From assembly GCA_015680905.1 (NCBI GenBank), contig CM027377.1, forward strand, positions 37,968,501 through 38,032,500: a DNA stretch of 64,000 bases. Direction: 5' to 3'. Within the stretch, counting starts at the first letter, position 1; each line of letters begins with the position of its first letter. Below the pieces are notes generated by a model. That model had not been told where the DNA came from. It was given only the letters and a program-made list of their open reading frames with translations, and ran no database searches. The DNA is from Coptis chinensis. Its lineage: Eukaryota > Streptophyta > Magnoliopsida > Ranunculales > Ranunculaceae. Both the position numbers and the translations under genes were made by a program. Below are positions 3,464 through 64,000 of the stretch, in pieces.

Positions 3464-4838
3464 ATGTCTCAAACCACCAGTAACAACACTAGCAATATCC
3501 CCCTCCGAAATATACTGGTCCTTAGTCTATAAAGCCAACCGAAAGTTCTCTAGGGTTCATGATTTACCTCACTACGGCCGTGCCAGGTAACTACACACTT
3601 GATCCCATTCCATTTTACATTTCCATTTCCATTTTATTTAATTTACATTTACACTTCAGGTACGACTCAAATTTCCAGAAAGTATTTAAAGTGTACACAC
3701 AGCTCTGGAAATTCCAACAAGATAATCGTCAAAAACTCATGGAATCAGGACTAAAGAGATGGGAAATAGGAGAAATCGCGTCACAAATAGCTCAGTTATA
3801 TTATAATCAGTATTTATGTACTAGTGAAGTGAGTTATTTATCAGAATCTTATATATTCTACGAGGCGATATTGAGTCGAGAGTATTTTAAAGATCGGTTG
3901 TCTAAGGAGGGGCAAGATATTAATCTTGCTAATAAACAATTGAGATGTATTGCTAGGTTTTTGATTGTTTGTTTGGTTTTGAATAAGAGAGATATGGTTT
4001 TTAAACTTGTTGATCATTTCAAAGTCTTGGTTGATGAGTGCAAGCGTAATTTTCAGGTGACCCCACTCACTGTTATGTTTTTGGTTATTTGTTTTATTGT
4101 GTTTTAGGATGAATGATGATGGTTAGTTGTTTTGTCTTTGTAGGAAACGGATTTTAAGGATTGGAAGCTTGTGGTTCAAGAAATAGTTAGGTTTCTTAAC
4201 AATGATACTGCATTTATGAATTTTCGGCCTTTGAGATTTAGTTTGGTGTTGGATTCTTCTACAGATAATATACAGCTTTTGCCTTCGTTTGATGGAAAGA
4301 GGAGTTTGAAATTAAGGGATGCGGTATTGTGCAGCTACCATCACAACGGGGTATTCTACAGATAATCATGTTGTTGGGTTGATATGGTGATTTGTACTTG
4401 CGTGCTGGGATACCGGATCCTGCAAGGGACTCAGACTGGAGATGCTTCTTGTGTATGATGCACTTTTAATATCATGGAATCTCTGTAGTAACGTTATATC
4501 TTTAATTGATACCTCTTTTCATATATTGGTGACTGCATTCATCATTACTGTTACTTTTTTGGACTATCATATTCTGAATGTTTCTTCTGTCTTTTCAGGT
4601 CAAGTTTACTGAGTTAACTCTCGACACCTTCATGATGCTCCAATCCCTGGAATGGGAACCTAGTGGTTCTTTTTACCAGATCACTAAGAATTCTAGTGGG
4701 AATGGTAGCAACGCTGGTCAGAATGGAGCCTATGGGGCTAACCGCGTCAACTACTCACAAGAAATCACAGACCCAACTCTGCCAACCAACCCACGGAAAG
4801 CCATTCTATATCGCCCAGCAGTCCCGCATTTGATAGCA
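3464..4838 (+). pseudogene. SCAI: 5' part of a plant SCAI family gene (DUF3550/UPF0682)
   Basis: Four plus-strand exons encode the N-terminal two thirds of a plant SCAI homologue, a conserved protein whose animal relative is a nuclear transcription cofactor. Exons are about 3464-3586, 3660-4056, 4144-4350 and 4599-4838, all joined by GT-AG introns (the first only 73 bp). Landmarks are HDLPHYGRAR, NFQKVFKVYTQLWKFQQ, YLSESYIFYEAILSREYF, LANKQLRCIARFLIVCLVL, TAFMNFRPLRFSLVLD, LTLDTFMMLQSLEWEPSGSF and RPAVPHLIA. Exons 2-4 stay open in the expected phase. Two things are odd. The only ATG near the start (3464) is one base out of frame with the conserved EIYWSLVYKANRKFSRVHD segment, and the slip lies at a run of five C (3499-3503). 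I also found no later exon, although about a third of the protein is missing. It could be a truncated copy, or an assembly slip plus a distant 3' part. Confidence 0.82.
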
Positions 4839-7775: not shown

Positions 7776-8220
7776 TCACAGCTTCTTGCTCAGCAATAGA
7801 TTGTATTTTTTGCACTCCTGATTAGGGGTGGGGATCGTGGGGTTATTTTGGAAAGTTCGAAACCTGGGATCGACTCTAAATCGAAGCTCTTTCAGTAGAG
7901 ACCTTTTCAAATTCTCATTACAACTGATGTCACATACCTCAATGGGCATTCCAAGTTGACTAAACTCTTTTTTCAAGGCGGTGATGTCTATCCAAGTTCC
8001 AAGTTTATATTTTCCCTTTAGGCCTTCTAGGTCATAGAATTTGTTCACATCCTTATGTAGATCCAGAGCCAAGGTAAAGTAGTATAATAGACCAAGGCCT
8101 AAAAATCTTTCGTGTTCATTCCATTGCTTTCTCCAAAACGCTACATGCATACCTTTCCATGCTGCAGAACCGCTATATTCAACAGTAATCCAATTTTCCA
8201 CCAATCTATCTTTTATGTTG
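7776..8220 (-). CDS. Unrecognised ORF, possible single exon
   Basis: A minus-strand open stretch of about 145 codons follows a pyrimidine-rich tract and a CAG acceptor at 8220/8221, so it looks like a 3' terminal exon and not a gene with its own ATG. It has normal protein composition, including WITVEYSGSAAWKGM, AFWRKQWNEHERFLGLGLLY, KLGTWIDITALKKEFSQLG and CDISCNENLKRSL. The Trp/Tyr/Leu-rich part suggests a folded domain. I do not recognise the family. It sits next to a small Helitron, and no upstream exon was identified. It may be a fragment of a host gene or of an integrated foreign sequence. Confidence 0.4.
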
Positions 8221-8639
8221 CTGAGTTGCGAAGAAGAAAATCATATCAAAACAGATGATGAGTAGGCATTAATGATGAGAAAAATTAAGGACGGGAAAAC
8301 TCGTTTTTTGTTGTGGTCCCCACACTTTTAGTTCCCATGTATCTTTCAATAATCTAGCATTTGATCTACTTTTTGACGTTTTTAAATTGTTAGGACATTA
8401 TGCGGAAAACCATGTGCAAAATCTTGAATTACCTTATCTTTAACGAATTCTTCTCCTCGTGGCTCTGCTTTATTCGTAGAAGGCCAGAGGCCATGTAGGG
8501 TAAACTTTATAGGGAGCTTAGTGACATCAGTCAGAAATTTATTTTATGTTTTTTGAATAGACACTGGCCATTCTAAGGCCAGTGTCTAGAACGAAAATTT
8601 TGGTCTAGCTAGGGCACGTGGTAGATGTGGTGATCTAAG

Positions 8640-13470: not shown

Positions 13471-13696
13471 CTAATGTGGATAATCTCCTTAATATTCCTT
13501 CCTTTAACAATTAAACTTTTGTTCATTGTTTTGTAATACTGATACAATTGGATTCTTCCTCAATCTTTATTACTTCTGTCTATTATATTTCTGAATATCA
13601 TTGGGATTTGAGCATATAACCCCTTGAAACTCTATACCGCAAATATCTTTACATAAAATCATATATTTATAATTTTTTTTGAAAACTAAAATTTTC

Positions 13697-14560
13697 GATA
13701 CCCTCAAATAGAGAGAGTATCATTGATACTTATAATATATATCTTTTGAAAAATTGAAATTTTTGATACCCTCAAATAGAGAGAGTATCAATGATACTTA
13801 TAATATATAATTTTAAAAAATGAAATTTTTGATACTCCCAAACAAAGAAAGAATATTAATGATACTTATAATATATAACTTTGAAAAATGAAATTTTCGA
13901 TACCCTCAAATAGAGAGAGTATCATTGATATTTAGACTTGTATCATCAGAAAATGAAATTTTCGATACCCTCAAACAAAGAAAGAGTATCAATGATACTT
14001 ATAATATATAAATTTGAAAAATGAAATTTTTGATACCCTCAAATAGAGAGAGTATCATTGATACTTAGACTTGTATCATCAGAAAATGAAATTTTCGATA
14101 CCCTCAAACAAAGAGAGAGTATCAATGATATTTAGACTTGTACCATCAGAAAATGAAATTTTTGATACCCTCAACAAAGAAAGAGTATCAATGATACTTA
14201 TATTATATAACTTTGAAAAATGAAATTTTTGATACCCTCAAATAGAGAGAGTATCATTGATACTTAGACTTGTATCATCAGAAAATGAAATTTTGATACC
14301 CTCAAACAAAGAGAGAGTATCAATGATACTTAGACTTGTACCATCAGAAAATAAAATTTTTGATACCCTCAAACAAAGAAAGAGTATCAATGATACTTAG
14401 ACTTGTATCATCAGAAAATAAAATTTTTGATACCCTCAAACAAAGAGAGAGTATCAATGATACTTAGACTTGTACCATCAGAAAATAAAATTTTCGATAC
14501 CCTCAAACAAAGAGAGAGCATCAATGATACTTAAAACATTTGATAATGAAACTTGTAATA
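13697..14560. repeat. Tandem array, 13 monomers of 64-68 bp
   Basis: GATACCCTCAAA recurs at 13697, 13765, 13831 (variant), 13899, 13964, 14032, 14097, 14164, 14231, 14295, 14362, 14429 and 14496. Each monomer carries GTATCA-A/T-TGATAC, a perfect 13 bp palindrome, then one of two spacers: type A (TTATAATATATAACTTTG) or type B (TTAGACTTGTATCATCAG). The order is roughly AAABABBABBBB, so the array shows mixed, higher-order amplification. It starts about 200 bp after the preceding ORF group ends. Confidence 0.92.
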
Positions 14561-18675: not shown

Positions 18676-21600
18676 ATGTCTACGACGCTGCCAATTAGTA
18701 AGACATGGATGAAGTTGCCAACATTGTCTACTGGATTTATCGAAGGTGCTCGATCATTCATTAAATTTACACAAGATAGTTTGGGGAAAGAAGTTGATTG
18801 AATACTACCTGTCCTTGTTTGCAATGCCGTAACCTAGAGAAGAGATCAGCTGAAGATATTTTTTTCCATCTGATTACAAAGGGTATGGTAACCTCTTATA
18901 CATTGTGGGTGCAACATGGAGAGCCTTTTTCTAGAAATGATGTAAATGTTGGTGTTGGTGTTAGTACCTCGACTATTGTCAACGATGAAATTATATTCCC
19001 AAGGATGGTAGACATGGTGAATGATACATTTGGATGTAGTCATCCAAATGATTTAGAGGCATGCCTGGATGAAGTTGATGATAATGATGATGCTCGTGAT
19101 ATTAATAGTTTAGAAGATGATATTCAAAGTAATTTACCTGAGGATAATCGATACAAAAAATTAATGGAGGATGCATTACTGCCATTGTATCCTTTGTGTC
19201 ATGGCGAGGATACGAAGTTGTCAGCTACAATTGAGTTGTTGGGCATGAAGGCTAAACATAGGTGGTCCGACAATAGTTTCACAAATTTGTTGGAATTTTT
19301 GAAGAGGATTCTACCAGATAACAATACGGTGCCCGTGAAAACATCAGGTGCTAAAAAAATGATAAAGTCATTGCGTATGAAGTGCGAGGTTATCCATGCT
19401 TGCCCAAATGATTGTATTTTGTATTGGAAGGGAAATGTGGATAGAAATACATGTCCCACTTGCGGTGTAAGCAAATGGAAACCAGTCGAAAAATCCAAAC
19501 CAAGGGGCAAACCTATTCCACAGAAGAAGCTTAGGTACTTTCCTATAACTGAAAGGTTGCAGAAAATGTATAGCGTGCCATGGCTTGCAGAAAATATGAC
19601 TTGGCATGCAAACTCAGTTGAAAACTCAAGTGATATGCGTCATCTAGTAGATTCTTCTTGCTGGAAATTAGTTAACTATCGGTGGCCTGATTTTTTTGGT
19701 GAGAAACGAAATGTTCGATTAGGACTAGCTACTGATGGATTTAATCCTTTTGGTAACAAGAATAGTATTCATAGTACTTGGCCTGTGATGATAGTACCTT
19801 ATAACCTTCCTCCATCTTTGTGCATGCGCAAAGAGTTTGTCATGCTGACACTACTCATTCCGGGTCCAAGTAGTCCAGGAGATGATATTGATGTTTACTT
19901 GCAGCCACTTATTGAAGAACTCAGGAACTTGTGGTTAAAGGGGGCTGATACATATTATTCGTACAGTAAAAAGATGTTTAACATGAAAGCAATTTTTTTG
20001 TGGACTATTAACGATTTTCCTGCCTTGGGCCATCTTTCGGGGTGCAAGACTGCTGGAAGGTATGCTTGCTCTGTTTGTAGTGAAGGGATAGATTCGAGAT
20101 GGTTAAAACATGGGAATTTTTTTGCGTACATGGGGTGTAGAAAGTTTCTAAAAGACAAAAATCATCCTTTTAGAACTCAAAAATCCCAATTTAATAGAAA
20201 GGAAGAACATGACGAGCATCCTCCTCGTTTGAGTGGTTCAGTAGTGAAGCTAAAAATGAGTCAAATTCCGACTATATATGGTAAGGTGAATGGTAAGAAG
20301 AGGAAGAGGTCTGCAAGAGAGGTGAAATTGACTGCTTGGTCAAAGGATTCTATCTTCTTTAAATTACTATATTGGGAGGTACTTACTTATTTTGTCCTTT
20401 TCTTCTATATAGTATTACTATAATTCTGTATTCCATCTTGCTTATGATAACGTAACATCATAACATAAATGTTGCTTGCCACAGTTCCTTCCTATTCGTC
20501 ATAATGTTGATGTGATGCACGTGGAGAAAAATGTAGCAGAAAACCTCCTTGCCTTGATCATGGATGCCCCCAAATCTAAGGATGGGATGGAAGCCCGTAA
20601 AGACCTAAAGGCTATGAAGATAAAAAAAAAAAAAAACTGTGGCCAATGGAAAAGGATGGGAAGTTATCATATCCTAAGGCACCTTTTTGTCTTTCCCGTT
20701 CAGAGAGAGAAATTATATGCAGAACTTTGCACCAATTGAAAGTTCCAATTGGATATAGTGGAAATTGGAAACACAATGTGAGCTTGAGTGATTTTTAGTT
20801 GAAGAGCCTAAAGTCACATGATTATCACATTCTTTTACAATACCTATTGCCAGTGTTGCTGATGCACGCATTCAAGAAACATAAGCCATTGCGTGAAGCT
20901 ATTCGACAGTTTTCATTGTTCTTCAATGTCTTGTGTTCAAAGGTTATTTGTCGCGTGGAGCTTGAAAATATGGAAAAACGTGTCGTGGAATCATTATGTG
21001 TATTTGAGAAGTACTTTCTGCCTTCCTTTTTTGTGTCCATGACACACCTTGTTTTACATTTGGCGGAGGAGGCTAAAACTTGTGGACCAATTAGATATTG
21101 TTGGATGTACTTGTTTGAGAGGTTACTGAAATTTCTTATACAATGATTTCTTTATTTTTTTATGCTCGATATTGATTAAAGGTGACACAGGATGATGAAA
21201 ACATACAAATGGTACATTGGGAATCAGAAATTTTCAGAAGGGTGCATTACAGAGCAATACCTCAATGAAGAAGCAATGAGGTATTGTATGGAATATATAC
21301 CATCGAGTAAAAGAGAAATTCACAACAAAAAACAAAGGGATGCTTTAAATGATAAAAGTGAGTGTGGTTACTATATTGATAAAAATGGAAAACACTACAC
21401 ACTTCCAAGTTTGCAATACCAGCAAGCACGCAAATGGGTTTTGCGAAAGTCGATTGAAAATGCTGATTGGGAAAGGTATTATTTGATATTCTTTGTTTTC
21501 AATTTTCAGTTAATATATGCATGTGTATGCTTTTAATAATAATAGTTGATTTGGTTAATATCACAACAAATATGAGACCTACATCCAAAGCCTCAAATCT

Positions 21601-47002: not shown

Positions 47003-47695
47003 TCTATATAACAAAGAAGGGAAGAGTGGGATGACAAATTCCACCTCATAGTGACTAGATTGTTTTCCTGGGATGAGGCCGGGCGCGCCAGATATCTGTG
47101 TCGTCTGAGGGGCGGATCGCGATCGGGTCTTCGAAACCTTATATATATATATATGGGGATGTGCATTGGGGGTGCCGAAGGCACGCATATTTGTGTCGTA
47201 CTCTAGAAACATGAGTAGAGCGGATAATGTCGTCGTTTAACGCACACCGAGCGTGTCGTATATATGTGTCGATGCACATCGGGGAGCCAAAGCGCGGTAT
47301 CTGTGCCATACCGGGGGTGGATGCGCGTTGGGGGCACTGAAGGCGTTCGTATCTGTGCCCATACCGGGGGTGGATGTGCGTTGGGGGCGCCAAAGGCATG
47401 CGTATCTGTGCTGCACCGGAGGGCAGATGTGCGTCGGGGATGCTGAAGGTGCGTATCTGTGCTATACCGGAGGGCGGATGTGAGTCGGGGGGTGCGGCGA
47501 CGCAGCGATATCCGTGCCGCATCGAGGCGGATGTGCGTCGGAGGCGCCGAAGGCGCGCGTATTTGTGCCGTACTGGGGGCAGATGTGCATCGGGGGCGCT
47601 GAAGGCACGCATATCTGTGATGTACGGGAGGCGGATGCGCGTCGGAGGCGCCAAAGGCGCATGTATCTTTGCCGTACGACACGGGCAAATACTAG
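47003..47695 (+). mobile_element. Non-autonomous Helitron with internal GC-rich minisatellite
   Basis: It starts TCTATATAACAAAGAAGG after an A and ends GACACGGGCAAATACTAG before a T. A hairpin (TTTGCCGT...ACGGGCAAA) lies 6 bp before the CTAG end, so 5' TC, 3' hairpin plus CTAG and A/T insertion all fit a Helitron. No Rep/helicase is present. Most of its 693 bp is a tandem array (47150-47680). The 3' tail resembles that of 7420-7689. Confidence 0.6.
47150..47680. repeat. GC-rich minisatellite, about 9 units of 52-56 bp
   Basis: The unit is roughly GTATCTGTGCCGTACCGGGG then GCGGATGTGCGTCGGGGGCG then CCGAAGGCGCGC. It repeats about nine times, with GATGTGCG-type words near 47158, 47317, 47372, 47426, 47477, 47529, 47582 and 47634. 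It is far richer in G+C than its surroundings, with CpG and GGCGCC palindromes. Overlapping open frames on both strands come from the repeat. Confidence 0.9.
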
Positions 47696-48466: not shown

Positions 48467-48624
48467 GGGAAAAAAAAAATGCATAGATGGGTAACGAACT
48501 ATACACAAAATCAAATATTGTTGTGTAAACTTTTTTTTAGCAAATTTGGGTAACGAAGTGTACCAAGTTTTGCAACGCTGGGTTCTGTTTCACATACTTT
48601 CGTCCATTTTTTTCACCTGTGTCA

Positions 48625-48659
<35 letters not shown>

Positions 48660-48863
48660 CGTTTTCTCTAATTATGTGTCACTTATTTTCCTATGTGGCG
48701 ATCTAGTGGCAATCTGACACGTATGAAAAAATAGGTTGGAAGTGAAACAGAACCCAACATTGCAAAACGTGGTACACATCATTACCCAAATTTGCTAAAA
48801 AAAGATTTATACACCAATGTTTGATTTCTTGTATAGTTCGTTACCCATCTATGCATTTAACCC
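48467..48863. mobile_element. Mutator-type foldback MITE with 9 bp target duplication
   Basis: Long inverted arms start GGG...AAATGCATAGATGGGTAACG on the left and run to CGTTACCCATCTATGCATTT...CCC on the right. They extend inward through TTAGCAAATTTGGGTAACGA, and the centre holds a run of about 32 T (48627-48659). The 9 bp flanks TAAACTTAA (48458-48466) and TAAACTCAA (48864-48872) differ at one base, as expected for an old Mutator-like insertion. No ORF is present. Confidence 0.8.
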
Positions 48864-50469
48864 TAAACTCAAAGATGTAAAGATCCTGCATATAGCTACA
48901 TAAGTCCATCTAAAACCAACTACACATATATTCTCTCCCGATCAAAATGTATAGCCAACAGTCCACACACTACTACAAAAAAGACTTGTGATGACGGCTT
49001 TTAGCCGTCATGAAACAGGTTTAATGACATTTTTTTCATTTAAAAAACAACCGTCATTATAGAGCCCGTCATAAAAGTTAACAAAAAGCTTTATAAATTT
49101 GATGACGGTTCTGGAGAAGCTGACATAAAAACTCGAACTTAATATGACAAACATTCATTTATAAACGTCATAACTAGATCTTTCTGCATGACATGTTTTA
49201 CTTAGCCGTCATAGTTTACTAGAAAAAACATCAAGAATTAAACCTTCATTTATGATTGTTTTTATTTAAGCGTCACCCTAAGAAACAAAAGCGTCAAGAA
49301 ATTAACACTAAACACTGTCAAAAATTGGTATGTAACACGACAGTTCTTTAGAAGCCGTCATAACTTCTTTTTCCTTTTTCCATTTTTCTTTTTTTCCCCA
49401 GTAAATCTAAAATTCTTGTAAATTTGAAATTCCTGTGTAAACCAATGCATTCATACACCCTCACAACTCAATTCCATTGCGGAAAAAAATCATTCCAAAA
49501 ACTTGTTCATATTCACGGAGAAAAAAATTAAATAACTCAAACACTTGATTCAAAATCAAGTCTCATAATCCAACAACAATGCAATTTACATAACTCATTC
49601 AACAAATTGCTAATCAACCGATCCATCTCAAACAAACTTAATTGAGCTACCATGCTATCTCACTTATAACCTAAAAAAACAATATGAAAAAGAATTTGTT
49701 AGTTTGTTTAATAAGTAAATTAAAAATATAATCATATATCGTCTTCTACATAGTATTAATTAAAAAAAATACACACAATGTGTTAGCACAATAAATCAAT
49801 ATCTACTAAATGAAAGAGATACGATCAACTATGACAAAGAATCATGTTGGTTAAGCCCCAAATAATGTACACCACTGTAGGATATATCTATTCCGTATAT
49901 CTACCACAAGTACACAAATAACCCTTTAGCTAATAGGCAGATTACTCAATTCCTCGATCTATGGATTAGACAGATTCAAATAGATACAAGTGTTGGTTGG
50001 AAACTTCCACAAAGTGACAGCCTCAGCCCATTAGATTTCGAATTGTTTACAACAAAGACAATATGTTTAAGAATATTATTTGAGCTACGACTACAAGGAT
50101 CATCTCATGGAAGGCTAGTTGCTTCTAGGTTACTTAGAGTGTACAAACTTACTGGGTAGATGCCAAGAACCTTTATACTCAGAAAACTAGCTTGTACAAT
50201 TTTTTTCCTTTAGCTAAAGAGATATGAAGATAATTTCAATAACTTTTACCTTCTGGTCATACACTAAGTTCAAAAAGGTTACCTCGCATAATTTCAGAAG
50301 GTGGTGCAGAATTGGGGAACAATCTTTAACACTCATCTTTCCACTACTGCATCAGCATATGAAACAAAAAATAAGGTCATTTGAATAAGACAAATCAACA
50401 CACACTTTCCAACAAGATATGGATTGGAAAGAATATAAAAATCAGTCACAAAATATACTTACTTATCAT

Positions 50470-51335
50470 ATACACCCGATCAAGCAAAGGAAGTTTGTGA
50501 ACCACAAATCAGTGCAATGAACTTGAACACAGGAAAGCACCAATTATGCAAAGTAAAGCCACAATTATAACTTCTGCTTTCTGTAATTAACTTCCCTTCT
50601 GGGCCATATGAACTAGAACACTTGCCGAGTGCTTTGATTAGGATTCCAACAGCACCACCTCTTAACAATTATGTCTGGTGAGGAAAAGAAGCATCTGCAA
50701 GAGAACACACGAATAAGTGATGTTGACTTATAAATCAAACTAAACAGTACATTGATATACACCTAGGCACATGGATGTTCCAATAAGCTGGCAAGAAAAT
50801 CAAGCAGCCTATAAACCTGGAAGAAAGTTAAAGAATGTTAAGAACAAGAAATATAACATACATTCTGTAAATACAAATATTCTTGTCCTACAACAATAGT
50901 AGCATATATCACCTTGAAAACATCTGTATCAGACAAAAAATGTACTTTAGAATTGTGATCATGTATCCACGAGATGATAGGTCGCAGAAGAATGATAGCA
51001 CTATCTGGTTTTTGGGACGCAATACGAACTATAAGAACTCAAAGCATATCTTGTATGACCACCAAAGCCTGGTTAACATGGAAGTCGATAGCAATTGAGT
51101 AAGAATATTAGGGAAAACAACATTCTTAAATAAACGTCAGAGAAGAAAATAATAATGAAAACCCTAGTCCTAAACAACATACAGAGAATGCGAAATGCAG
51201 AACAATTTGGGCAAATTTTTCGAGCAGTTGCATTAATCGGCTCAGTAGTGTTGCGACATGTCTAGGCTGTAAGTACCAATCAACGTGTCTTTCTTTCAAA
51301 GGACCCAAAACTGTTGCGATGGCCAATGATTTAAA
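50470..51335 (-). pseudogene. VIR: Captured fragment of VIRILIZER homologue
   Basis: Four minus-strand exon pieces match plant VIRILIZER, the large scaffold subunit of the nuclear mRNA m6A methyltransferase complex. Exon 51183 to about 51335 gives LAIATVLGPLKERHVDWYL with LSRLMQLLEKFAQIVLHFAF and a GTATGT donor. Exon 50913-51068 gives VLIVRIASQKPDSAIILLRP with ISWIHDH and FLSDTDVFK, a GTGATA donor and one in-frame TGA. Exon about 50770-50818 gives YRLLDFLASLLEHPCA. The last, about 50475-50690, gives LRGGAVGILIKALGKCSSSY with GPEGKLITES and WCFPVFKFIALICGSQTS. The order is that of the host protein. It is a small part of a protein of about 2100 residues and not functional alone. It lies directly downstream of the MOR1 fragment on the same strand. 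Recalled family match; moderate to good. Confidence 0.72.
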
Positions 51336-51486
51336 TTGAAACTCAAAACTCGAATGTTGATTTGTCTTTCTTCAAAAACATATGCTTTTCATTAATAAAA
51401 GGAAATTATAAAAAGATTTTAATGATAATAAATAATATACACCATGAAAGTAGAGAATGTTATAGTGATCAACTGATAATGTATAC

Positions 51487-52883
51487 CGTGAGAGCAGAAG
51501 TGGATGGCTTCAACAAGTGCAACGCCTTGGATGAGTCACTTATTCCTGAAATTTGCTTTGTTAACCAATCAAAAAGATCTTTCTGACCTTCAAAGACTAA
51601 TCTTGGTATCGCCTAAAGCGGTATAGCATTATGGAACCTGAAAATCACATACATTTTTGTCATACTAAATAAAAGATAGGAGATACATTTCAAATCAATA
51701 AATATTGACAGTAGTTACCATCTTATCAAGATGAACGGCAGCTACCCAGGAATCTAAGGTATTTATAGTGCATTCTCTCATGTGCTTTTTATTGTCACTA
51801 AGGCATTTCAAGACATGATAATATTCCCTGCAAGAAACCAATCCTCAAATTACTCGCTCCTCCAAGTCACAAATAGAGAAATGAGTAGACACATTTAAAT
51901 TGAAAGCAAACTTGTAAACCTTGCTAGACTTTTCAACCATCGGTCCCATTGCAGATGCAACTCCACCAACAACAACCAAAGTTGCCATAACCAAATTTTT
52001 GTTACTGTCATAAAGACGACCTCTAAGAGCACCAAATAACTCAGCTGGGAGGCAAGTGAAAAGATAAGATATTAATAAGCAATCAAAATTAGATAATAGC
52101 AGTCAAATGCATGAATGAAAATATGTGCATAATTGATATACTAAGGAAATAAATGAAAACCATACTAGTTCCAGTTGGTTGAATGCGCTTGTTAGCTTCT
52201 TCTAAAATTTTATTCACTAAATCGATAGACTCCAAACGGATCTTGAACATCAGAAAAACAAGCAAGCTTAGCACTACAAAGTAGTGAAACAGTGATTGAA
52301 CACCACCACCAGCACCCGGTCATTGGGTGCTTAACAATATCCAAATAATTAAGTTAATGCAGAATGAACAAAAACCCCAACACACCTTCCAGTCAGGGCT
52401 AGACAAGTTATTTAGAAAAGTAGGTGTTATCTTCCCACTAATATCTTCACGTGGAAGGCCATCCAATCCACCAGCGGACATAGACAAGGTGGATTCTGAT
52501 GCTTTCACAGTTTTCCTTGGTGCTGCAGATGTACCATATTGCAAATGATATTAAATACTAGAAGCAATCGCTCTTCAAAAAATGTGTGGATAGAATGGCA
52601 TACCTCAAAAGGATTTTTCTCATACTTTCGGCATCAAGTGCACCGAGAAGTGCAGGCTTAACATCAGTAAGAAATCCTTTAATATCTGCAGAAAATATAT
52701 TGGAAGCCCTACCACTACTTTAGATCATCAAACTCCACACAAAACAAATTAAAACAATTAATAAAATGAAAACTCACCCGGACCAATAAATTTGTGTACT
52801 TCCCCAATAAGCTTGATAGTCGCATTCCTGATGGTAGCATTACTGGATTGCAATCCAGTGTCTTTGCAGAACTCAATAAAATT
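51487..52883 (-). pseudogene. MOR1: Captured fragment of MOR1 (XMAP215-type TOG protein)
   Basis: Seven minus-strand exons in host order match plant MOR1, a cytoplasmic microtubule polymerase with five TOG domains. 52778-52883: FIEFCKDTGLQSSNATIRN with ATIKLIGEVHKFIGP. 52604-52685: IKGFLTDVKPALLGALDAE. 52386 to about 52535: LDGLPREDISGKITPTFLNN with LSSPDWK. About 52168-52238: IRLESIDLVNKILEEANKRI with QPTGT. 51920-52044: ELFGALRGRLYDSNKNLVMA with VASAMGPMVEKSSK. About 51718-51835: NKKHMRECTINTLDSWVAAV. 51487-51637: FEGQKDLFDWLTKQISG with ALHLLKPSTSAL. Most GT-AG sites are kept. Two extra bases before YEKNPF and two missing bases near LKCLSDN shift the frame, so it is a pseudogene. It covers the end of one TOG domain and most of the next (I believe TOG3-TOG4), about 300 of nearly 2000 residues. 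Confidence 0.85.
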
Positions 52884-53989
52884 CTGCAGAGAAAATCTAG
52901 AAAAGCTTGATTAACATGACAACATAAAGATAAACAACCAAGCTTATTGGTGCAGATCTAGAACTCATAAATTTCGATTTTGAACTTGACAAATGAGCTT
53001 AGAAGTGCTTCAGAATGAAAGGATTAGAAAAGTATGTTCATTGTAACTCTTTTTATAGGGCTTACAAAAAGGAACAAACTTTGTTCATTGAAAACTTACC
53101 TTTTAAAACCATTTTTATAGGGCTTGTCACAAACCATGTTAAAAACTTTGTTCGAAAGGAGATAAAATTAGAAAATTACCTTCTAAAACCATTTTTCAAA
53201 TAGTTCACCAAGACAAAATTGTCATTGAAAGAGCGATTGAAGAAGATTATATTAAGTTTATGAAATTACCAAGACATTTTTTTTAAATAAAAAATGATTA
53301 TATATAATAACTATTAATTTTTAAATCGAAGAGTATTATCGATGCCTAGGTTTTGAAGGAGATAAAATTAAGTGTATTTGAGATGTTATGAGTTTTTTTT
53401 TTCGTTCACTCTCTTTTTTTGCTAAAGTTTCTCTCTCTGAATTATAAAAGTTTCCACGATTTTACTTATTGACGGCTCAAGTGAACACATGAAACGTAAA
53501 CCGGTTGTGACGCTTTTAGCTTGGCCAAGCCCAAGCGCATCACATCTGCGTGCTCTTGACGGTTATTTGGTTGACTGTTGAAAGTTCATTAAAAGAAGTG
53601 ATAAGTCAGGGACTATGTCAACGTTCGCAACATAAAAAAAAAATGGTCCAGAGAGGTGTCGACGACTTATTATACTGCTAAAGTTAGCTGTTTAAGAAAA
53701 ATCCTTCAATAAATCATCATATTTTCTTGACGCCGGAGTCATATGTGACATAATGTTGTAACAGCCGTCATAAAATCATAATATTTTCTTGACGCTTGTG
53801 TCATACATGCCATAATGTTGGAACAACTGTTATAAAAATATTACCAAGACACTTATCTTGACGGTTTTCAACAAAGCCGTCAAGATAGATAAAAAGCAAG
53901 CGTCATAATGTCTTTTTTTTAGTAGTGATAGGTCCCTATAACAACCATATCCATGTTCTAAGGAGTAGTCGTCATTCACCATTAAGCTT

Positions 53990-55845
53990 GAATTAACTCA
54001 TCCCGGCCACCTGCATATCAATTCCTTGAAAGTGTGCTCCTTTCTCAGTTCCTTATATTTGAGCAATCACCTAGTTCACCACTAGATTCTTGTCCTTGAA
54101 GATCATTTCACTCCTTACGCTCCATAATGTCCAACAAACTGCATATGGAAGAGTTTGCCAAATACCCACTCCCAATCCTCTCACATTTATATTTGACGAA
54201 GTGGCTAACATCCCCTTAGCATTAGGAGAAGTAATAACCAAATTCATTGCCTCTGTATAGCCTCCCAAAAGAGACTTTCATATTCCTATCGACATCGGGA
54301 AAGAGAAAAGATGAGGAAGTGATTCTATTGTTATATTAAAAAAGGCACAAAAATCATTAAGAGGGTGGGTTTGTTACACCTCTCTCAATGAGCTAGTTTG
54401 TGTTTTGCAAGTATGCTATCCCAAAGGAAACTCCATCTAAAGAACTTTACATTCATGGTAATGTTGGCTTCCCACGCTAGCTTGTAAGGAAATACTATGT
54501 TGATGTTCCCATTGTTTCTCATGTCATGGATCATAATTGTGTAGAAAGACTTAATTGAGAAAAGATTGTTGGAAGTAGCATTCCACTCCCAGCTATCGTC
54601 ACAATCATCAAGTGATAAAGTTGAGAAAAGTTCGTTGAGGTAGTTCAATTGTTGGACTTCACTCTCTCTAAGATTCCTTCACCGGAGATTTAATTTCCAC
54701 TCACCGTTTCTATGATCTTTGATAGTTCTACCTTTCAAAGAAGCATACTTATAGTCTATGGAATCGTGCCAAAAAGAGTCTTAGTTCCATTTCCAACCTT
54801 GTGTGTTACATTTTCGAAGAACTTGTCTTGAGAGGCTAGAATGCCTCTCCATAGACTACACATAAGGTTGAGTTACTTTCTTTGAGATTCCTCCATTGTC
54901 AAACCCGCCATATTTAGCATCTAGTACTCTTCTCCATAATCCATCTTTCTCATGACCTTCATATATCCATTTATTGCTAAGGAGTGCTTGATCATAACTT
55001 GCATGTATCCCCAATCCTTTTTGATCATGTGAAATGTATACGCTATTCCACGCTATGAGATGCATCTTCTTCTTACGTTTTTGTGTGCCCCAAAGGAAGT
55101 CACAAGTCACTTTATATTTTCTTCGCTACATTTGTCGGGACATTGAGGAGAGACAAATAATAAACTGGTAAGCTTGCAAGAGTACTCTTAATGAGAATAA
55201 GCCAACCTCCTTTAGAAAGCAATTTTCGTTTCCAACCACTAAGCTTCGAGTGAACTGCCTCAATAACTTTATTCTACACTTGGGCATTCTTGTACTTCGC
55301 GCCGAGGGGGAGCCCAAGATATTTAAAAGGAAATTTTCTAGTACCACATCCCATGACTTCCGCTAAGTTTTCCAAGTTATTCCATTCCCAATTCCATATA
55401 GGCAAGATTTTGATAAGTTCATACTAAGCTCAAAGAGTGTTCCTGATGGTGGCTAGCTACTGATTTCATATTGGCCTTTGTCATAAAGAGAGTGTCGTCC
55501 ACAAATTGGAGGATTCCCAAGTGAACATCTCCATTACCGTACCAATTTGAAAACAGTCTAGCAATTTAAGTTCCATGGCTTTTTTCCTAAGGTGGGAGAG
55601 AGCTTCCATAACAAGAATGAACAAAAATGGAGATATGGGATCACCTTGCTTAATACCCCTTTGAGACTTGAAGTTCCCTTGAGGTGTCCCATAATAGAGA
55701 ACCTCGTTGTAGAAATACTTGTCGAGATCAATTTCCTCCATTTCTGTCCAAATCCCATATAGCTAAGAATATAATCAATAAGTGACCAATTAACTTAACG
55801 TGGTCCTACGCCTTGGTGATATCAACTTTGCATAAAATCCGCGAT
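53990..55845 (-). mobile_element. 5'-truncated LINE (L1-type), minus strand
   Basis: From right to left: the reverse-transcriptase palm (CKVDITKA near 55805-55835; GTPQGNFKSQRGIKQGDPIS then PFLFILVMEALSHL near 55590-55690), the thumb/connection (about 55126-55347), FLWGTQKRKKKMHLIAWNSV and GLGIHASYDQALLSNKWIYE (54856-55110), a zf-RVT-like part (WEWNATSNNLFSIKSFY, KLAWEANITMNVKFFRWSFL, 54385-54648) and an end piece at 54071-54268. The endonuclease and the first part of the RT are missing: sequence homology stops near 55845. Several frame changes and stops are present. No poly-T tract marks the 3' end, so that end is approximate. Confidence 0.78.
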
Positions 55846-58369: not shown

Positions 58370-61300
58370 TATTTTGGCACCGTCTGTGGGGACGAAAGCA
58401 GGTAAATATTCGTTTCAAATGATTGATTTATTCTAAAAACTCTTACTGTTGTGATGGCAGGAGCAAAGAAAATAAAGGGTGGCACTACCCTCGTACAACG
58501 TCGCCATCAGAGAAGAAGTGCATGAGATGCTTGAAGGGGGTGAGAATGTCGGTTGCCAAGATGCGAATGATCCCCCTCAAGGACCTATGACCAGCACCGA
58601 TGGACTAGTTGTTCTCAGAGCAGGTCCCAGGCATAACGTTCAGGAGGAACGTCAAAATGGCAAGAATGTTGTCCTCACCAACCCAGAGTATGTTCAGGCG
58701 AGTTAGGCGGTGCATGCTCTGGAATAGCAAAGGAGCAACCTTGAGCGAGAATTACAGTTGCTAAGGCACTTATATCAGTCTGACACAGGGAAAGAACCAC
58801 TCATCGATCTCGATAATGACGACCCTCCGGAAGGTGATCGTGCTAGGAGTCGAAGGCATGGGGACCCAATTCGGCGCGAGCTATCTGAGTCAGAATATAG
58901 CAACTCAGATGAGGACTCAGGAATAGCCTCAGAACCAGAGTCGACTGACCAAGATCGTGATGTCGACCCTCGACACCGAAAAAGAACTCAGAACAGGAAA
59001 CTTCCTACCAAAGAAAGTGCATGGGAAACTAAGAAGAATGACTTGATCCGTCAGACGCATCGGATGACAGGCAAGGGGAGAAAAATGCAAGACTCCCTTG
59101 TTCAATCCACCATAATGGGGGCAGGCATATCTCCTTTTGCGTCATGAGTGATGAGGAAGCCATATCCCCATGGGTATAGACAACCGAAGTTTAGTGTCTT
59201 TATTGGCAAGTCAAATCCGGTGGATCACGTATTCAGGTATCATGCCACTATGGGACAATATGAGAGATATGACCATGTCATGTGTTAGGAGTTCAAAGCC
59301 TCCCTGTCTGGATCTACGCTCCAGTGGTATCACAGATTACCTGAGCATCAGATCAGGTAATCATGCCACTATGAGAGATCCGGTGGATCACGTATTCAGG
59401 TATCATGCCACTATGGGACAATATGAGAGATATGACCATGTCATGTGTTAGGAGTTCAAAGCCTCCCTGTCTGGATCTACGCTCCAGTGGTATCACAGAT
59501 TACCTGAGCGTAAGATCAGGTCCTCAGAAAAACTATTTAGGACCTTCATAGACAGGTACTCATGCAACAAGCATCCACCAAAACATATGTATCGATGCAC
59601 TGTTCAGCATCAAGAAAAAGGATGGAGAGGCGTTGAGATCCTACATGCAACGGTTCATGGAAATTTCAATCCAAATAGAGTCTTGTGACGACCAGACTGC
59701 TATAATAGCTTTCAAACAAGGGTTGGATGAAAACAACCCACAATTTAGAGGAACTCCTTGACAGGGTTGAAACTCATGTGGGGTGGGAAAAAGATGTCCT
59801 GAACAGACATTAGGAAGCGAAGAAGACTAGCCGGACATTTCCTGGGCTTCCTCGAGAAGGGAATGGAAATTCTTCCCCTCAAAAATCAAAGAGAGACCGT
59901 AATTGTAATTACCAAATTACCGAATCTCCATCAAAGGGACGAATGCCCAGAGGGAAATACCAAAATGTAGCCATTAGTGCAGATGGAAAACCACATAAGA
60001 AGCCACGTGTGGAAGGAACTGAAGAAGCTCTTCCTTCAATGGACATAAACTTTACCCCTTTGAACAAAATGGCAGATGAGGTTTTGGACTCGATAAAAAA
60101 TCAGAGCTACCTCAAATGGCCAGCTCCGCTAAAGCCAGGCTCCCTGGGTACTAGAGACCAAAGGACCTACTGTAAGTTCCATAAGAGTAAGGGTCACAGC
60201 ACCAAAGACTGCAGGACCCTGAAAAATGAACTACATGATCTGATTGAAAGGGGTATTTGAAGCAATTTGTGGCACACGAATAGGTGAACGCAGTACAGCC
60301 TGAGGAGATTAGCACGTTAGTTCAGGATCCCCCAGGTACTGGACCACTCAATGGTCGACTGCAGATAAATATGATTTCTGAAAAAGCAAGTAAGCGAAAT
60401 AGATAGATCATTGAAAAGGGTGCGCGATATCAAATGCGCATCGCCAAGCAGATGAGGATCATGAACAGCGAGCTGACTACAGGAGCTCAGGTTAATGCGG
60501 TACCCCACAAAGATCCGCTCATCTTCTTTATTGAGGCTGACTGTTGTAGCATCCAGAGCCCCCATGAGGATGCGCTTCTTCTGACACTTTCTTTTGGAGA
60601 TTATGATTTGCATCGCATATTAGTTGATCCAGGCAATTCAGCAGATGTGCTATACTAAGCCGCATTAAAAAAGCTGCAAATTCCTAATTCTGAAATGGTT
60701 GCCACCAACTCCAACCTATATGGATTCAGTGGGGACAAAGCTCTGACAGTTGGGGAGATCCAACTACCCGTAGCTACTAGTCCGGTAACTCTCATCATAA
60801 ACTTTGTTGTAGTAAAAGCTAACATACCCTATCATATGATCTTGGACAGGACCTGGCTACACAGACTCTGAGCTGTTCCTAGCACCTATCACCAATGTCT
60901 GAAATTCCCACATAACGGGCCAATTGAGATGATCAGAGGGGATCAGGTGGCTGCCAAGGCATGCTACGCACTGGCGACGAAGTAGTCTCCACTCCCTTCT
61001 AAACCAATAGAGGTGGGGCAACCCACGAAATAACAATTATAGTTGGATCCACCTCTCCCAGACTTGGTCCCACGAGAGAAGGAGGATCCCCCCCTCACTG
61101 GAGTCGTTAGAGGAAGTGGAAATTGCAGGTGGTAGCTCGCCAAAAACCACTTTTATCGACACCTTGTTGAGTTCTGAAGAGCACCAAGCTCTGATACAGT
61201 TCCTCCGAGAGCACAGAGATGTGTTTGCTTGGTCATTCGAAGAAATGCCAGGAATTGACCTTCACGTGGCATGCCACCAGCTCAATGTCTGCAGTGATGC

Positions 61301-64000
61301 AGTAGTAATCAAGTAGAAACCGAGAAGGATAGGTGCTAACAGATCCAAAGCGGTAAAAGCTGAAATTGAAAAACTAAGGGCAACTAATTTTGTCAGGGAA
61401 ATCAATTTCCCCACCTGGATTTCTAATATTGTCATAGTTAGAAAGAAAAATAGGTCATGGAGAATCTACATTGACTTCACGGATCTGAACTGTGCATGTC
61501 CGAAAAACAGCTACCCTCTGCCACGAATTGACAAGTTGGTGGATGCAACGGCTGGATATGAACTGTTATCTTTCATAGATGGGTCGTCAGGCTACAACCA
61601 GATCTCCTTACATGAGGAGGACCACAAGCATGCCAGTTTCACAACTGAGGATGGCCGGTACTGCTATCAGGTCATGCCATTCGGATTAAAAAAATGCAAG
61701 AGGCACATACCAGCGTTTGGTAACAAGATGTTCAAAAGATTAATAGGCAACATTGTGGAGGTTTTGTGGATGATCTCCTGATTAAGAGCCTGAAATGGGG
61801 AGATCATCTCTCCCACTTGAAACGTTCATTTGACGTTCTTCGAGAATATCGCATGAAGCTCAACCCTGCGAAATGTGCTTTTGCTGTATCATCAGAAAAG
61901 TTTTTAGGGTACCTAGTTACTAAGAGAGGGATTGAGGCGAACCCAGATCAGATCCGAGCACTCATAGAAATGCCCTCACCTAAAAACATGAAAGATGTTC
62001 AGAAAGTTATAGGCAGGTTAGCAACTCTAAACAGATTCATCTCCAAGAGTTCAGATGGATGGATGGAATGCCAAAAGGCATGGATGGAAGATTGCCAAAA
62101 GGCGTTCGATCAACTCAAAACATACCTGGGGCACCGCCAATCCTTTCAAAGCCTGTTGAGGGGGAAGTCCTTGGTCTTTATCTCTGTTTATCGGACTACG
62201 ACATCAGTTATGTACTAATATGCGTGGATGAAAAGAAGGTTGAAAAACCTGTCTATTTCTTGAGCCGACGCTCCTACCAGCAGAAACAAGGTACCCTAAA
62301 CTCGAAAGAGTTGCTTTAGCACTTGTTTTTGTCGTAGAGAAATTACGACCGTACTTCCAGTCCCACACCATTAGAGTGATCACAGAGTACCAATTGCGAT
62401 CAGTTCTAGAACGACCGAACAGGTTAGGAAGGCTAACTAAATGGTCTGTGCAACTGCCAAAATATGATATTATTTACGTCCCCAGAATCTCAGAGAAGGG
62501 TCAGGCACTAGCAGAATTCTTGGGAGATTTCCCAATGACCTACACTAGGTACGACTCAACAACCCCCAGTTCAGATGATGTCATCCTGCCTGAATCTCTA
62601 AACACCCGTCCAAACCCATAGGAGTTAAACTCCAGATGGCGGCTGTTTGTGGATGGATCCTCAAATGACAGAGGTGCAGGAGTTGGAGCTATGTTAGTTA
62701 CTCCTGACAATATACGGCTGGAGAAATCCATCTAATTAGGTTGGAACGCCTCTAACAATGAGGCAGAGTATAAGGCAACATTTGCTGGCCTCACAATGGC
62801 CCTCAACCTGGGCCCAACACACCTCACAGTTTTTAGTGACTCACAGCTGGTTGTGTACCAAGTTGATGGAGGGTATGAGGCCATGGACGAACGAATGGTC
62901 AAATACCTAGAACTGGTGAGGGGTCTTCAAGGAAAGTTTGAGAACATTTAATTCTATCAGCTACCTCAATCTAAAAATTGACACGCAGATGCTTTGGCAT
63001 ATGTTGCCTCGATGTTGGGCAACAGCGAGTCATATTCCATCCTTATAGAGTTCCAAGAGAAATCTAGCATTTAGGTCCCAGTTATAATAGTTTATGTTGT
63101 TACAGCCATTACTCCAAGTTAGATGGATCCATTTAAGTCCTACCTCAAAGATGGGACACTCCCTAAGAATAAGAATGTAGCAAGGCGTCTGCTTGCAAAG
63201 ATACAGAGATTCACCCTCGTTGGAGACGATCTGTACAAGAAGTCTTTTTTGGGGCCTCATCTCAGATGTCTCACCCCAGACCTCGCTGAACAAGTTATGC
63301 AAGAAGTTTATGAAGGAATTTGTAGCAACCATGCTGGGGGCAAAACACTAGCTCTCAAGATCCTAAGGCAAGGGTACTTTTGGCCTTATATGCAAAAGGA
63401 TGCACATGTTTTTGCCCACACATGTGAAAAATGTCAATGATATGCTCCGCTAATCCATGCTCCAGCAACAGAAGTGCACCCATTAGCCAGCCCATGGCCA
63501 TTTGCACAGTGGGGAACTAACATTGTCAAACCTCTACCACCTACTCCTGGCAATGTTAGATTCTTATTGGTTGTGACAGATTACTTCACCAAGTGGATAG
63601 AAGTAGTTCCCCTTGTCTTCATTCGAGAACATGACGTCAGAAAGTTTATTTGGAACAACATTGTCTGCAGGTTTGGCATACCCAAAGTTATCATCTCAGA
63701 TAATGGGCAATAGTTTGTTGGAGGATTGGTCGTTGAACTCTGTGAGGAGTTTCACATTACCTATATGTTCTCAACTCCAAGGTACCCACAAGGCAATAGC
63801 CAGGTTGAAGCCTCTAATAGGGTCATCTTGGATAACATGAAGCGTAAATTAGACGATGCGAAAGGTTTATGGGTTGAGGAACTACCTAAGGTCCTATGGA
63901 CATACCGAACTACACCTAAACGGTCAACTGATGAATCCCCATTTTCACTAACCTACGGAATTGAAGCTGTCATACCTCCCAAACTGGTAGCTCCCACTCA
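57687..64000 (+). mobile_element. Tat-type Ty3/gypsy retroelement, partial (runs off the window)
   Basis: After the LTR and primer site comes an acidic/Arg-rich gag leader (58455-59150). Next are gag pieces with a knuckle YCKFHKSKGHSTKDC (about 60170-60215), protease (about 60500-60860, LVDPGNSADVL), and reverse transcriptase (about 61320-61990: ELLSFIDGSSGYNQISLHEE, YQVMPFGLKKC and, further on, KLNPAKCAFAVSSEKFLGYL). Then come RNase H (about 62640-62960: [33 protein letters not shown]) and integrase (63123 onward: YEGICSNHAGGKTLALKILR, HTCEKCQ, LLVVTDYFTKWIEVVPL). Gene order is gypsy. It is broken, with more than ten breaks; the 3' end and age cannot be judged because the second LTR is outside. 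Confidence 0.88.

Follow-up and report, generated by a model that had tools for sequence, protein, structure and literature searches.

A region of Coptis chinensis DNA that is very probably a non-autonomous CACTA-type transposon with pieces of a MOR1-type gene and of VIRILIZER

We analysed a stretch of 64,000 nucleotides (nt) of the Coptis chinensis genome (GenBank assembly GCA_015680905.1, contig CM027377.1, forward-strand positions 37,968,501 to 38,032,500), referred to below as the window, in whose own coordinates all positions are given. The region 48968-53927 of the window is very probably a non-autonomous CACTA transposon of the En/Spm type, similar to the Pack-CACTA elements, which carries pieces of a MOR1/XMAP215-type gene and of VIRILIZER. 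In the CACTA superfamily, an autonomous relative supplies the transposase and the subterminal-repeat-binding protein, which recognise the ends and the subterminal repeats in trans. Our element would have been mobilised in trans by such a relative, and its interior would have been filled with genomic DNA of two genes, one for a MOR1/XMAP215-type microtubule-associated protein and one, VIRILIZER, for a subunit of the N6-methyladenosine (m6A) writer. A composite of this kind had been put forward in an original prediction made on the same DNA. The CACTA-type element and the intron-containing MOR1 piece of that prediction were upheld by our analysis; VIRILIZER was upheld as well, with weaker independent backing, its only reference being a sequence that does not come from a database.

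The element, its ends and its flanks are delimited as follows:
48968..53927, no strand: whole presumed non-autonomous CACTA element, 4,960 base pairs (bp), with inverted ends that pair and clusters of subterminal repeats
48968..48985, plus strand: left terminal inverted repeat, complementary to the right arm at 17 of 18 positions
53910..53927, minus strand: right terminal inverted repeat, pairing with the left arm
48965..48967, no strand: left flanking trinucleotide ACA, a candidate target duplication sharing two of three bases with the right ATA
53928..53930, no strand: right flanking trinucleotide ATA, sharing two of three bases with the left ACA
48968..49420, no strand: left subterminal repeat zone, 10 TGACG/CGTCA motifs
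53440..53927, no strand: right subterminal repeat zone, 9 TGACG/CGTCA motifs, with a 62-bp unit present twice at 53711-53837

The sequence CACTACTACAAAAAAGAC at 48968-48985 is complementary to 53910-53927 at 17 of 18 positions. When the window was shuffled 100 times with its dinucleotides preserved, and any CACTA/TAGTG pair 0.3-25 kb apart was accepted, no shuffle equalled this match and the best reached 16, once. The matching ends that had been proposed at 48968 and 53927 were thus placed correctly. Taken alone, a 14-bp end match was not significant, as 6 of 20 mononucleotide shuffles gave at least 13/14, and the case for an element therefore leans on the subterminal repeats too. The left 453 bp contain 10 starts of TGACG or CGTCA (mean 0.5 and maximum 3 over 500 shuffles) and the right 488 bp contain 9 (mean 0.8 and maximum 5 over 500 shuffles), in zones whose limits were chosen post hoc from the observed motif positions. 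The same motifs start once in the 4,019-bp interior, at 51135 within the VIRILIZER piece, and the rest of the window, 59,040 bp in all, contains 45 of them. Motifs packed at both ends are the layout expected for a CACTA element, and the TGACGG subterminal repeats reported at both ends by the original prediction are borne out by the 10 left and 9 right motifs with a single one between them. Beyond the inverted ends, the left and right zones could not be aligned with each other (best score 20, built around the ends; shuffled sequences reached up to 19). Within the window, a 15-base end pattern searched with zero mismatches had no further occurrence, and a comparison of the element with the rest of the window gave one 26-bp match elsewhere, with an expect value (E) of 0.022.

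No transposase domain was detected by Pfam in 10 of the 51 open frames of the element that code for at least 40 amino acids, the only match being CRT-like (E 0.19); the 10 frames scanned are not the ten longest, and two long frames overlapping MOR1 exons were excluded. When the 541-amino-acid TNP2 frame of the window was used as a query, its best E within the element was 3.0. The absence of a transposase, claimed previously, agrees with both of these tests.

A TNP2-type CACTA transposase frame is found in another part of the window, at 18798-20420 on the plus strand (Pfam: Transposase_21 E 1e-77, Transpos_assoc E 7.9e-12), and judged by eye it seemingly extends to about 21750. We considered it as a direct autonomous partner, a role that is unsupported: no nearby 500-bp bin holds at least three TGACG motifs, and the CACTA/TAGTG pairs that enclose the frame reach just 11/14. 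The frame possibly belongs to a different, decayed CACTA family.

Within the element, the MOR1 piece consists of seven exons:
52778..52883, minus strand: MOR1 exon a, open frame
52604..52685, minus strand: MOR1 exon b, frameshifted
52386..52535, minus strand: MOR1 exon c, open frame, acceptor without AG
52166..52241, minus strand: MOR1 exon d, open frame
51920..52044, minus strand: MOR1 exon e, open frame; the enclosing frame 51848-52102 has no Pfam match of its own
51719..51827, minus strand: MOR1 exon f, frameshifted
51487..51637, minus strand: MOR1 exon g, frameshifted

Exon borders were picked by eye at GT/AG where these were present, and splice-site counts are therefore not independent evidence. 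With the seven exons stitched into one query, a search of solved structures returned CKAP5 (4qmi) at E 1.5e-19, in a region that we take to be TOG4 of this protein, and 4qmh (LP04448p), presumably the Drosophila protein Mini spindles, at E 4.4e-14. Close to its start, a smaller part of the query matched "MINI SPINDLES TOG3" at 1.3e-4. Pfam returned the HEAT repeat (5e-8) and, below its cut-off, the XMAP215/CLASP TOG family (6e-5). As further references for both genes, we used Arabidopsis protein sequences that do not come from a database record; they were compared to the window by tblastn with E up to 10. The element matched this MOR1 reference with a summed E of 6.7e-69 (single alignments between 3.9e-28 and 5.8e-5); reversed controls gave 4.2 and 1.3. 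By this comparison, the piece spans the end of TOG3 to about the first half or middle of TOG4. Frameshifts affect three of the seven exons (b, f and g). Seven minus-strand MOR1 exons at 51487-52883, with introns kept, had been predicted, and structures, Pfam and the MOR1 reference are consistent with this prediction as it was made.

The VIRILIZER piece lies downstream of it on the same strand:
51183..51332, minus strand: VIRILIZER exon 1, open frame; no AG acceptor where the homology begins, donor GTATGT placed by eye (initially 51204)
50913..51068, minus strand: VIRILIZER exon 2, one in-frame stop
50763..50816, minus strand: VIRILIZER exon 3, a stop as its last codon
50463..50694, minus strand: VIRILIZER exon 4, a frameshift and a stop, 3' end placed by eye (initially 50474)
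50283..50346, minus strand: possible VIRILIZER exon 5, without significance by itself; its order and strand agree with the other exons

Against the Arabidopsis VIRILIZER reference, the element gave a summed E of 9.7e-24, with single alignments at 3.2e-19, 3.3e-5 and 0.75. The best of 10 shuffled controls reached 0.12 and one reversed control 3.2. Candidate exon 5, with an E of 0.75-0.83, is no better than chance given the best shuffled control, and only its place and strand favour it. A sixth exon near 50140-50200, suspected by eye, was not returned by tblastn and is not claimed. Stops are present in three of the five exons (2, 3 and 4), and exon 4 is frameshifted in addition. The four exons, the minus strand and the introns of the original prediction hold, while the limits, which had been put at about 50470-51335, become 51332 to about 50463, or 50283 if exon 5 is included.

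The MOR1 and VIRILIZER pieces follow each other head to tail, both on the minus strand, with exons in protein order and introns kept, and are separated by a short junction:
51333..51486, minus strand: junction of 154 bp between the pieces, either intron sequence left over from MOR1 or filler DNA

The Arabidopsis locus codes of the two genes are At2g35630 and At3g05680. By the Arabidopsis naming rule, the former is on chromosome 2 and the latter on chromosome 3, which argues against the capture of one contiguous native locus, with the proviso that the host map may differ. Each piece was probably acquired in a step of its own. The head-to-tail order of the original prediction is thus confirmed, and the two separate captures that it proposed are what we infer from the different chromosomes of the Arabidopsis genes. 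In a variant of this history, to which we give a smaller but still appreciable chance, the pieces arrived together, either by fusion of neighbouring CACTA elements or from one pre-joined locus. The common orientation of the two pieces would fit such an origin, and tandem Pack-TYPE insertions that fuse and re-mobilise have been described (PMC8903248). Fusion predicts that a remnant of ends or subterminal repeats should be found between the pieces, and none rises above background, though a later deletion could hide one: the segment 51333-51482 has an end-similarity score of 13, compared with a mean of 12.1 (standard deviation 1.8) for 131 segments outside the element and of 12.3 for 52 interior segments (top score 16, near 53171-53246), and it contains no TGACG/CGTCA motif. 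Uptake in separate steps remains the history that we favour.

What could the element do in its host? The original prediction was silent on lesions, and both fragments carry frameshifts or stops, so that no intact chimeric protein is to be expected. To judge from their reading frames, the gene pieces appear to be passengers whose coding capacity has been lost, and most likely the element has no role in the host other than as DNA that is or once was mobile. It is very unlikely that it acts via a chimeric RNA or small interfering RNAs (siRNAs) that lower the expression of MOR1 or VIRILIZER, or that it exonises into a neighbouring transcript. Most splice dinucleotides do remain, at borders placed by eye, and captured exons of the soybean element Tgm-Express1 are spliced into transcripts (PMC1947982); against this, the fragments are decayed and no host gene was recognised around the element, where seven right-flank frames were inspected and the left flank was scanned for repeats only. 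The more specific proposal, that transcription across both fragments would yield siRNAs or a chimeric RNA dampening the genes of the MOR1 type and of the m6A-writer subunit, is slightly less probable again. If true, it would connect the activity of the transposon with RNA methylation and with cell division. The element itself would be of more importance only if small RNAs derived from it acted on the parent genes.

Some observations weigh against the reading of the region as a CACTA element with pieces of these two genes. The flanks ACA and ATA are an imperfect match, with two of three bases in common: either a 3-bp duplication differing at one base, or none at all. Designed armadillo proteins make up many of the 40 structure matches listed for the MOR1 query, the best of them at 1e-6 and third-best overall, which means that helical-repeat similarity of a general kind contributes to the MOR1 signal. 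The capture steps and the past mobility are inferred. Finally, the name VIRILIZER received no support from structures or from Pfam, and so rests on the Arabidopsis reference sequence: a search of solved structures with the VIRILIZER pieces of the window gave one unrelated match (E 0.44), and the corresponding segment of the Arabidopsis reference matched nothing in the PDB up to E 10, while the best Pfam results were PSY3 for the window query (E 0.02) and V-ATPase_H_N for the Arabidopsis segment (0.12), both below the cut-off. This lack of support, together with a reference from outside the databases, would be compatible with the second piece being derived from another helical-repeat gene. We regard this as highly improbable, since two collinear alignments reach E 3.2e-19 and 3.3e-5 without sum statistics, compared to 0.12 for the best control, the third (0.75) not being significant.

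That we are dealing with native MOR1 and VIRILIZER loci between chance CACTA-like ends is hardly credible: exon order and introns are indeed retained, but the pieces lie 154 bp apart with several lesions in each, the end structure is far above chance, and neighbouring stretches of both reference proteins have no significant match elsewhere in the 64 kb. For MOR1, the 767 residues before the fragment gave a best E of 2.0 in the window (over 12 residues where exon a begins) and the approximately 390 residues after it nothing under E 1.5, the C-terminal rest being outside the search; for VIRILIZER, the 49 residues before and the approximately 190 after the fragment had no significant match in the window, the rest of the protein being outside the search. 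Native, continuous loci, which the original prediction had itself named as the outcome that would speak against it, were thus checked for and not borne out, and we reject them for these searched stretches (MOR1, 767 before and about 390 after; VIRILIZER, 49 before and about 190 after).

By its contents the window is plant nuclear DNA, and it is rich in transposable elements, with gag, reverse-transcriptase and CACTA transposase domains recognised by Pfam. On the right side of the element, two of seven minus-strand frames gave weak reverse-transcriptase matches (RVT_1 5.7e-5 and zf-RVT 1.2e-4, below the Pfam cut-offs) and the remaining five gave none; the region 54388-55762 (minus strand) looks, from these frames, like a decayed long interspersed nuclear element rather than a gene. 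On the left, a fold-back element at 48477-48858 lies close to the CACTA element, its 117-nt arms being 90% complementary. Further features include a reverse transcriptase frame at 61317-61778 on the plus strand (RVT_1 E 5.8e-13), a near-perfect tandem duplication of 163 bp at 59215-59521, and larger tandem arrays at 13678-14533 (unit of about 67 bp) and 47281-47677 (unit of about 52 bp, GC-rich). A frame at 3526-4104 on the plus strand matches the protein SCAI (Pfam E 5e-63) and is possibly part of a real host gene. Another, at 7779-8240 on the minus strand, is RNase T2-like (Pfam E 1.6e-4, below cut-off; RNase NGR3 in the PDB, E 0.002). We take KHGTC of the solved RNase NGR3 to be catalytic; the residues aligned with it differ in the window's frame, which is probably inactive.

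A literature search that paired virilizer, MOR1 and CACTA returned an unrelated match only, and this gene pair was not found in the literature searched. Searches with four peptide strings from the fragments gave no match, those with three end strings of 13-14 bases an unrelated match only, and in viral contigs the two fragments gave 6 and 27 pattern matches as possible relatives, none of which was confirmed. Elements of this kind are well known, the capture by CACTA transposons of exons and introns from several unrelated genes having already been described (the field is reviewed in PMC13317346). The middles of nonautonomous CACTA elements are said typically to contain host gene fragments (PMC8195511), maize Pack-TYPE elements often to hold more than one locus each, with Pack-CACTAs holding the most (PMC8903248), and CACTA elements with captured gene fragments to occur in Chenopodium (PMC8978399). 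Some such elements are also reported to be misannotated as genes (PMC8903248). Practically, MOR1-like and VIRILIZER-like gene models at this position should be masked. The element, whose two ends are both defined, also illustrates cleanly how a cut-and-paste transposon shuffles pieces of host genes as DNA.

Three known systems can be set beside the element. The LsC1 family of lettuce is likewise of the non-autonomous CACTA kind, and the 12-nt search query of the paper on it, CACTACTNGAAA, is close to CACTACTACAAA of the element described here; one fixed base of CACTACTNGAAA is different, and LsC1 is active, with a 3-nt duplication, ACC (PMC8195511). The Pack-CACTA elements of Arabidopsis, maize and rice share the CACTA ends, the captured coding DNA and the lack of a detected transposase, and those of maize are often multi-locus (PMC8903248), whereas the candidate target duplication is imperfect in our case. 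Tgm-Express1, a soybean CACTA element of the wp allele of F3H, contains exonic and intronic regions of five genes (PMC1947982). It resembles the Coptis element in its size of about 5.7 kb, in its Tgm inverted-repeat ends of the CACTA type and in carrying exon and intron regions of several unrelated host genes. The two differ in the number of gene fragments, five against two, and in their state: Tgm-Express1 is transcribed and has its site within an intron of a gene that is expressed, whereas the pieces of the element described here are visibly decayed.

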